Of a stretch of 64,000 nt of DNA, positions 10,764 to 11,423 are shown in pieces. This DNA is from Ruegeria sp. AD91A (GTDB taxonomy: Bacteria; Pseudomonadota; Alphaproteobacteria; Rhodobacterales; Rhodobacteraceae): positions 310,001 through 374,000 of the forward strand of contig NZ_CP031946.1 in assembly GCF_003443535.1 (NCBI RefSeq), read 5' to 3'. The notes beneath the pieces are model-generated. The model was not told the DNA's origin. It saw only the letters and a program-made list of their open reading frames with translations, and did not search any database. Within the stretch, counting starts at the first letter, position 1; each line of letters starts with the position of its first letter. The position numbers and the translations under genes were made by a program.

Positions 10764-10845
10764 AAAAAAACGGCGGTTCCCAGGGAGGAGGAGGGGAACC
10801 GCCGTCTTGTCAACATCAGAGCAGGGAGGAGGAGAGCCCCGATGT
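10764..10845 (-). ncRNA. CcsR/cuckoo-type small RNA, unit 3 (last), with terminator
   Basis: Read on the minus strand, two hairpins carry a CCUCCUCCC loop. The first (10845-10813) has arms ACAUCGGGGC/GCUCUGAUGU, perfect only when two G-U wobbles are allowed on this strand. The second (10804-10771) has an 11-bp stem CGGCGGUUCCC/GGGAACCGCCG and runs directly into seven T residues, so it doubles as the intrinsic terminator of the array. Known relatives in Rhodobacter (CcsR) expose an anti-Shine-Dalgarno loop and act in stress responses. Confidence 0.75.
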
Positions 10846-10881
10846 ATTCGAGCCCGGGTTTGAGCCCGGTATGAGGAAGAC

Positions 10882-10957
10882 GCGGCGACGTCAGGGAGGA
10901 GGAAGACGTCGCCGCGCGCTTTCAACATCGAGGCAGGGAGGAGGAGAGCCCCGATGT
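10882..10957 (-). ncRNA. CcsR/cuckoo-type small RNA, unit 2
   Basis: Minus-strand hairpins 10957-10925 (ACAUCGGGGC/GCCUCGAUGU, one G-U wobble) and 10915-10882 (perfect 11-bp GCGGCGACGUC stem), 9 bases apart, both with CCUCCUCCC in the loop. The first closely matches the first hairpin of unit 3, and the second matches the second hairpin of unit 1. A 36-base spacer to unit 3 holds a small CCGGG/CCCGG hairpin that may be a processing site. Confidence 0.75.
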
Positions 10958-10991
10958 ATCAGGATCCGGCGGGTTGGGGCCGGTATAGGGT

Positions 10992-11060
10992 GCGGCAACG
11001 TCAGGGAGGAGGAAAGACGTTGCCGCTGATTACAGACCCTAAGGGAGGAGTAAGGGCCTG
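10992..11060 (-). ncRNA. CcsR/cuckoo-type small RNA, unit 1
   Basis: Minus-strand hairpins 11060-11033 (CAGGCCCU/AGGGUCUG with a G-U wobble; loop has CUCCUCCC) and 11026-10992 (perfect 11-bp GCGGCAACGUC stem; loop has CCUCCUCCC), 6 bases apart. The unit begins 21 bases after the stop codon of the DUF1127 gene, as in the ccaF1-CcsR locus of Rhodobacter sphaeroides, where the RNAs are cut from the ccaF1 transcript. A 34-base spacer with a CCGGC/GCCGG hairpin leads to unit 2. Confidence 0.75.
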
Positions 11061-11081
11061 ATCTCAGTATTCGTGGCGCGC

Positions 11082-11315
11082 TTATTGCGCGATGTGATCG
11101 TTGGCGGCCTGCATGGCCACCCGGCGGATCATGGACCGATGCAGGCCCAGATCGGCCAGTTCACGATCCGACAGCCCTGCCAGTTCATTGACGGTCTGGC
11201 GATACATACGATAGCGGGCAAAGCGCGTCTTAGCGTTCTCCACCAGGGCTGCGATTCCGAACGCCGGTGCACTCTTGGGTGCTGTATGTGTGCTTGCGAC
11301 TGCCATGCTCATCAT
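11082..11315 (-). CDS. ccaF1: DUF1127 protein, CcaF1-like
   Basis: A 77-residue basic protein ending in the DUF1127 signature: R-Y-R-M-Y-R-Q-T-V-N-E-L-A-G-L-S-D-R-E-L-A-D-L-G-L, then RSMI. In Rhodobacter sphaeroides the small DUF1127 protein CcaF1 binds RNA and affects maturation of the CcsR sRNAs encoded directly behind it; the same order is seen here, which supports the symbol. The ATG at 11315 is followed by a second ATG and another at 11306, so the exact start is uncertain. Upstream dyads at 11374-11423 may control transcription. Confidence 0.82.
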   Translation of the reverse strand: MMSMAVASTHTAPKSAPAFGIAALVENAKTRFARYRMYRQTVNELAGLSDRELADLGLHRSMIRRVAMQAANDHIAQ

Positions 11316-11373
11316 CCGTGTCTATTTGCTTTGCCGATAACGTTCGGCCCTTGCTTGAGATTGAAAATAGGCA

Positions 11374-11423
11374 AATGCTGCAATTGCACAATAGGTCACG
11401 TCGTCAATGCTGCTATGCAGCAA
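11374..11423. promoter_or_regulatory. Paired dyad operators upstream of the DUF1127 gene
   Basis: Two related 18-base sites, AATGCTGCAATTGCACAA (11374-11391) and AATGCTGCTATGCAGCAA (11406-11423), share 13 of 18 bases. The first contains the perfect palindrome TGCAATTGCA, the second TGCTGC-tat-GCAGCA. Their centres are about 31.5 bp apart, three helical turns, as expected for a tetrameric regulator such as a LysR-type protein. No cognate regulator gene is nearby. Confidence 0.45.

Follow-up and report, generated by a model that had tools for sequence, protein, structure and literature searches.

The question raised by this locus is whether the run of hairpins behind a DUF1127 gene in the 64,000-nucleotide stretch of Ruegeria sp. 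AD91A DNA analysed here (the window) encodes three tandem RNAs of the CcsR/cuckoo class, as an earlier note made from the letters alone had proposed, and what would control them. Analysis of the minus strand between 11315 and 10764, exactly the coordinates given in that note, revealed a DUF1127 gene followed by six hairpins with CUCCUCCC in the loop. We regard it as highly probable that the locus is an operon of the ccaF1-CcsR (CIN1) type with three units, which would be stress-induced, activated by a LysR-type regulator and cut into RNAs that block Shine-Dalgarno sequences. The features are as follows.

11405..11419, minus strand: predicted LysR-type site 1, TGCATAGCAGCATTG, agreeing at 13 of 15 positions with the reverse complement of the quoted VtlR motif
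11375..11388, minus strand: predicted LysR-type site 2, TGCAATTGCAGCAT (TGCA-N6-GCAT), overlapping the -35 region and resembling the nfeR1 LsrB site
11364..11391, minus strand: candidate promoter TTG-N17-CCTATTTT (RpoH-like), a pattern found in 45/45 genus loci
11082..11315, minus strand: DUF1127 gene, ccaF1-like (PF06568, 59.6 bits), with a tblastn match in all 45 genus loci read
10992..11060, minus strand: CcsR-like unit 1, made up of hairpins A (11060-11033) and B (11026-10992); its RF02791 score of 45.1 bits misses the gathering score
10966..10986, minus strand: spacer 1, AUACCGG and hairpin CCGGC/GCCGG, its five pairs standard in all cells of 42 sequences
10881..10957, minus strand: CcsR-like unit 2, made up of hairpins A (10957-10925) and B (10916-10881); its RF02791 score of 37.1 bits misses the gathering score
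10854..10872, minus strand: spacer 2, AUACCGG and hairpin CCGGG/CCCGG, its five pairs preserved in 41-42 of the 42 sequences
10764..10845, minus strand: CcsR-like unit 3, made up of hairpins A (10845-10813) and B (10805-10764), the latter followed by T7 as terminator; its RF02791 score of 35.9 bits misses the gathering score

The motif CTCCTCCC was found six times in the window, always on the minus strand (11050, 11011, 10943, 10901, 10831 and 10790), and five of the six copies had the form CCTCCTCCC. The 4.4-Mb genome contains it at 53 places. Six of these lie within 268 nt at this locus, which excludes chance; the other 47 are scattered and formed no second array, and a fold test of them used criteria so loose that it had no discriminating power. 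A minimum free energy fold of the minus strand from 11090 to 10741 placed all six motifs in open hairpin loops, bearing out the six anti-Shine-Dalgarno loops of the earlier note. Short gaps of 6, 8 and 7 nt alternate with long ones of 34 and 35 nt, giving three pairs of hairpins; the pairwise order reported earlier was retained, and its values (6, 9 and 8; 34-36) were off by at most 1 nt, depending on how the stem ends are defined.

The DUF1127 gene, likewise expected from that note and recovered by Pfam, is short and lies directly upstream, the first loop motif being 34 nt downstream of its last sense codon. This is the position described for the cuckoo/CcsR class at the CIN1 locus. Translation of the gene may start at the ATG at 11306 (74 aa), because some relatives have no earlier ATG. 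The loops carry the conserved CCUCCUCCC-type motif on variable stems, as in the description of the cuckoo class (PMC4504443), and, where that class has 2-4 hairpins per RNA unit, the six hairpins of the window fall into three pairs when grouped by spacing. The last hairpin with T7 has the form of a Rho-independent terminator. A DUF1330 gene (PF07045; 10419-10709, minus strand) lies just downstream of this terminator on the same strand as the operon and was detected in only part of the genus loci. Elsewhere in the window two tandem tRNA genes were found on the minus strand (133-204 and 241-312) with an equal Rfam score of 65.4 bits.

In Rhodobacter sphaeroides, ccaF1 (DUF1127, 71 aa) is reported to be co-transcribed with four units, CcsR1-4, and the association of a DUF1127 gene with such RNAs is known as the CIN1 locus and the RNA class as cuckoo RNA (PMC10253847, PMC8625941, PMC7866481, PMC4504443). 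Descriptions of the R. sphaeroides operon include an RpoHI/RpoHII promoter (PMC10253847) and a terminator; its RNAs are cut by RNase E with the aid of CcaF1 (PMC10253847, PMC8625941, PMC7866481), and they are reported to modulate C1 metabolism (PMC10253847). A covariance search of the window, as suggested by the earlier note, with the Rfam model for CcsR1 (RF02791) matched each of the three pairs (45.1, 37.1 and 35.9 bits; E-values 3e-9 to 2e-6), but no unit reached the gathering score of 65.3 bits. The gathering score of ar14 (RF02344, 58.8 bits) was not reached in the window either, the best match scoring 50.6 bits. Weak CcsR1 matches elsewhere in the genome (E 0.07 and worse) were taken as chance, because 12 of 14 control genomes also gave matches at E <= 10.

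The same model was applied to Cereibacter johrii, which we take to be a close relative of R. sphaeroides. Its eight motifs form four pairs in the same layout as the window; unit 1 passes the gathering score at 106.2 bits and units 2-4 score 39.4, 43.6 and 46.6 bits. In Rhodobacter sp. SW2 three of four units reached the gathering score. The window locus fails the curated Rfam threshold but belongs to the class by its architecture. Judged from its sequence, it belongs to the cuckoo/CcsR class (ccaF1-CcsR, CIN1) as an ordinary member with three units instead of four, and the three tandem units of the earlier note are supported by the loop motif, the pairs, the DUF1127 gene, the terminator, the covariation described below and the C. 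johrii layout.

The two-motif pattern was present in 54/54 genomes of the genus and in 246/295 genomes of the family, the latter being a draw in which nearly every genome came from a different genus. From the 54 genus genomes with the pattern, 45 loci were read, the window included (L042 and L065 are other loci). Three units were found in 35 of these and four in ten, counting three loci with degenerate copies; uvrD was a neighbour in 44/45 and mraZ in 41/45, as far as the fetched stretches reach. A DUF1127 gene lay directly upstream in 27 of 30 family loci. A scan of named relatives gave 47 loci, of which 17, picked by eye for cuckoo arrays, were used; these had been found with a CcsR1-like pattern and count C. 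johrii twice (L157 and L175). Relatives with the layout of the window include C. johrii, C. changlensis, Luteovulum azotoformans and Rhodobacter sp. SW2.

Several other arrangements were seen. The longest array among the loci read (L019/L133; genome G165, contig C1, about 334949-336120) is linked to a DUF1127 gene, contains 26 CTCCTCCC motifs and is largely a three-hairpin tandem repeat of roughly 140 bp. At L026 and L037, cuckoo motifs lie on both sides of the DUF1127 gene, or two DUF1127-hairpin modules follow each other in series. Three congeners (G329, G334 and G336; L130, L131 and L132), and also G335, carry a further two-motif site of near-identical sequence on a different contig, perhaps on mobile DNA.

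Upstream of the gene, and beyond what the earlier note had described, the 45 genus loci share a conserved block about 100 nt 5′ of the gene, which consists of TGCATRGCNGCATTG, about 13 nt, TTGTGCA-N3-GCAGCA and then TATNTT. A 53-aa frame on the minus strand (11483-11322) runs across this block and had tblastn matches in 44/44 other genus loci, a protein-level conservation in relatives that is misleading; it was rejected as a gene, as its conserved part is the promoter DNA element in the alignment and an indel breaks the frame in at least one relative. Transcription is predicted to start near 11357, an estimate made from the -10 element of the putative promoter, which would place site 1 at about -62 to -48.

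The block resembles sites of a LysR-type regulator. VtlR of Brucella melitensis is reported to bind CAATGCAGCCATGCA and to activate DUF1127 genes and the sRNA AbcR2 (PMC12595884). Its homologue in Sinorhizobium meliloti, LsrB, is reported to bind TGCA-N6-GCAT at -72 to -57, upstream of the core promoter, and to activate NfeR1. This cuckoo-class RNA carries three CCUCCUCCC motifs and is reported to silence the mRNAs of ABC transporters (PMC10746234). The sequence of the window promoter contains a box of the VtlR/LsrB type, and TGCATRGCNGCATTG was exact in 41/45 genus loci, the window included. No more than three mismatches to the quoted VtlR motif were found in 45/45 genus loci and in 38 of 44 other DUF1127 loci (21/27 family draws and 17/17 named), 15 of the 44 matching at 14/15 positions. 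The background was 53 of 432,470 positions with no more than three mismatches, on both strands of the same DNA and with the promoter sites included. The box was missing in six of the 44 other loci, one of which has its upstream DNA cut short.

The tandem of TGCA-N5-GCAT followed by TGCA-N6-GCA had one match in the whole genome, at this locus. The strict tandem was found in 39/45 genus loci and 21/44 elsewhere and was absent from Cereibacter, so that as a family rule it appears weaker than the single box. The only other exact TGCATRGCNGCATTG in the genome lies at C1:1698944-1698958 (L182); no DUF1127-like frame was seen near it, and the site could precede an unannotated RNA.

PhaR, whose site is CTGC-N3-GCAG, is an example of another TGC-rich regulator to which the upstream box might belong instead of a LysR protein of the LsrB/VtlR kind. 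CTGCATAGCAG is present in the window, and elsewhere in the genome a phasin-like gene (L184) has a comparable TGC-rich site upstream, phasin being a reading of the protein only. In several relatives the palindrome is no longer intact (CTGCATAGCGGC; CCGCATAGCAG), whereas GCATRGC.GCATTG is kept, and both the activation of DUF1127 genes by VtlR in Brucella (PMC12595884) and that of a cuckoo-class RNA by LsrB in S. meliloti (PMC10746234), as reported, speak for the LysR type. Control by another TGC-rich regulator such as PhaR is rather unlikely.

LsrB has been called unique to Rhizobiales in a comparison that included R. sphaeroides (PMC11975290). A search for LysR genes beside trxB in 30 trxB loci of the class matched none with a first text pattern and five with a looser one, four of which were read as LysR and lie directly behind trxB. 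In two of these loci (L197 and L202) the LysR gene is followed by a suhB-like RNA scoring 34.3 and 32.3 bits, against a gathering threshold of 41 bits; the order trxB-LysR-suhB-like is the arrangement reported for vtlR-abcR (PMC7486931). The L202 protein used as a query gave one match at E <= 1e-40 in each of 38/41 family genomes, the three misses being genomes of 74-86% completeness (36/36 among the good genomes). In the window genome the match had an E-value of 1.4e-71 and 42% identity over 295 aa; the part presumed to bind DNA includes a near-identical stretch. Its gene (C1:1184802-1185680) is not adjacent to trxB (C1:4150).

This protein is a putative orthologue of VtlR/LsrB, the identity of the query itself resting on its neighbourhood. 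Despite the claim that LsrB is confined to Rhizobiales, 38/41 family genomes thus appear to encode a VtlR/LsrB-like protein. On balance we lean towards a wider reading, in which a redox LysR regulator of the LsrB/VtlR kind, so far overlooked, would have the DUF1127-CcsR operon as its core target across Rhodobacteraceae. If so, a circuit running from LsrB to an anti-Shine-Dalgarno RNA to solute-binding-protein mRNAs would be common to rhizobia and Rhodobacteraceae, the conserved LysR-type site would tie CcsR control to the LsrB/VtlR circuit of rhizobia and Brucella, and the number of RNA units, from one pair up to the 26-hairpin array, would tune its strength. Among the titles and abstracts listed, none linked LsrB/VtlR with CcsR; the spacer hairpins or promoter motifs may already be described in the key CcsR/cuckoo RNA papers.

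The two spacers between pairs were expected to start with AUACCGG and to hold a small GC hairpin. Each does hold a hairpin of 5 bp (CCGGC/GCCGG in spacer 1 and CCGGG/CCCGG in spacer 2), but AUACCGG lies 5 and 8 nt inside the spacer (10986 and 10872) and not at its start. AUACCGG was present in 96/99 long spacers of the 45 genus loci. Within the genus no two-sided change was found in either spacer hairpin in the 42-sequence alignments. The structural support comes from the wider family, where 91 long spacers from other loci were compared with shuffles (16 named loci were used, leaving out L175, the second contig of C. johrii; the spacers of L035 and L155 contain a degenerate extra hairpin). No more than five of 100 shuffles were as stable in 57 of the 91, where about five such spacers are expected, with a mean z of -2.3, and the stem sequences differ widely. 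The other 34 were not significant against shuffles, including the second and third spacers of C. johrii and L. azotoformans. The spacer hairpins are real, and the conserved one is a candidate cut-site marker for CcsR maturation.

These spacers also bear on whether the locus is instead one long uncut RNA with six loops, acting as a multivalent sponge for Shine-Dalgarno sequences or for the DUF1127 protein, with the pairs as a trace of duplication. Very long arrays do exist, the 26 motifs of L019 being spaced 42-51 nt without a long spacer; L020 also has no long spacer, and minimum free energy folding closes the whole region. Against this, short and long spacing alternated in 15 of the 18 multi-hairpin loci tested from the 30 family loci, the spacer hairpins recur as described, and the same arrangement is reported to be cut by RNase E in R. 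sphaeroides. We therefore regard an uncut sponge as improbable and processing into three RNAs as the better account of the locus.

Covariation in relatives, the absence of which the earlier note had named as counting against its reading, was present in unit 1. Forty-two species of the genus (the window and 41 others) were aligned over unit 1, the first spacer and the A hairpin after it. Pairing was seen in 99.7% of cells and two-sided changes in 10/33 pairs, 89 cells in all, a value reached by 0/500 shuffles; with partners slid out of register, no more than seven cells had two-sided changes. Relatedness among the sequences can by itself lift such values above shuffles, and the slid control favours a structure taken from the alignment under test. 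A measure counting further pair types did no better than shuffles, 170/500 of which reached it. The last spacer and unit had two-sided changes in 4/25 pairs. The alignments (A1 and A2) leave out three of the 44 other genus loci (L044, L060 and L116), which have degenerate motif copies. That the hairpins are just a complex terminator or mRNA stabiliser of the DUF1127 gene, acting on nothing in trans, is very improbable: the last hairpin and its T-run do look like a terminator, but the stems have changed by compensatory mutation around a constant 8-base loop motif, something a plain terminator would not require, and the CcsR RNAs of R. sphaeroides have a reported effect on C1 metabolism (PMC10253847).

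For RNAs that act in trans on Shine-Dalgarno sequences, the loop motif points to possible targets, as it is the exact complement of GGGAGGAG. Elsewhere in the genome GGGAGGAG was found at 47 sites, 33 of them with a start codon 3-10 nt downstream; this is expected because GGGAGGAG is itself a good Shine-Dalgarno sequence, so only the gene classes are informative. The target set comprised 21 genes with an ATG 3-10 nt after GGGAGGAG and at least 140 open codons. The controls were genes with AAGGAGA (the first 30 of 70 sites, 23 of which had at least 60 codons), many of them ribosomal or housekeeping genes with expression unmatched to the targets. Solute-binding-protein Pfams were matched by 6/21 target-set genes and 0/23 controls (Fisher P = 0.008), only four of the six exceeding the Pfam curated cut-off (P = 0.044); one of the 23 controls was an ABC permease. 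As the length limits differ (140 and 60 codons), the comparison was also made at 140 codons, which left 14 controls and gave P = 0.033 for six and 0.11 for four, and the class compared was chosen after the gene names had been seen.

Other genes of the target set encode a PQQ alcohol dehydrogenase, three molybdenum-dehydrogenase-type subunits and an acetyl-CoA synthetase. The PQQ gene was found in six of the 31 genus genomes searched, its own included; GGGAGGAG was kept in four of these six (three of the five others) and GGGAGGAA was found in two. These matches are suggestive of solute-binding-protein and carbon-oxidation genes as CcsR targets, which would fit the reported role of CcsR in C1 metabolism, and the exact loop complements make the solute-binding proteins, the PQQ alcohol dehydrogenase and the molybdenum dehydrogenase subunits testable candidates.

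Taken as a three-unit ccaF1-CcsR operon, the locus would work as follows. A single stress-induced transcript, running from about 11357 to the terminator at 10764, would encode the small DUF1127 protein and three two-hairpin RNAs. An RpoH-type sigma factor and an LsrB/VtlR-like LysR regulator bound at the two tandem sites would probably act together to activate it. RNase E, assisted by the DUF1127 protein, would most likely cut the A/U-richer stretches beside the spacer hairpins and release three RNAs of about 70-80 nt. The two CUCCUCCC loops of each RNA would then pair with GGGAGGAG Shine-Dalgarno sequences and block translation, probably of mRNAs for some uptake solute-binding proteins and of carbon-oxidation genes.

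The locus itself is expected in Rhodobacteraceae and the operon type is already known; what merits further attention is the conserved spacer hairpin and the predicted control of the LsrB/VtlR kind. Comparison with the ccaF1-CcsR1-4 operon of R. sphaeroides was made through C. johrii as a stand-in, which has both the layout and the LysR-type box. As in that operon, tandem two-hairpin RNAs with CCUCCUCCC loops, set apart by long spacers, follow a DUF1127 gene in the window. The window locus differs in having three units and not four, in its AUACCGG-type spacers, whereas those of C. johrii are GC-rich and only the first folds significantly, and in the CcsR1 score of the first unit (45.1 compared to 106.2 bits). 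The alpha-r14/NfeR1 RNA of rhizobia (RF02344) also has CCUCCUCCC motifs in hairpins, and it is reported to be activated by LsrB and to silence mRNAs of ABC-transporter periplasmic components (PMC10746234); unlike the window units, which score below the RF02344 gathering score, it is one three-hairpin RNA with its own promoter and is Hfq-independent. AbcR1 and AbcR2 of Rhizobiales, reported to be anti-Shine-Dalgarno RNAs acting on transporter mRNAs, are a different RNA family (partly suhB-like) located beside vtlR/lsrB and not behind a DUF1127 gene; what they have in common with the window locus is the VtlR-type box, a LysR regulator (here putative) and RNAs of the anti-Shine-Dalgarno kind that would act on transporter mRNAs.
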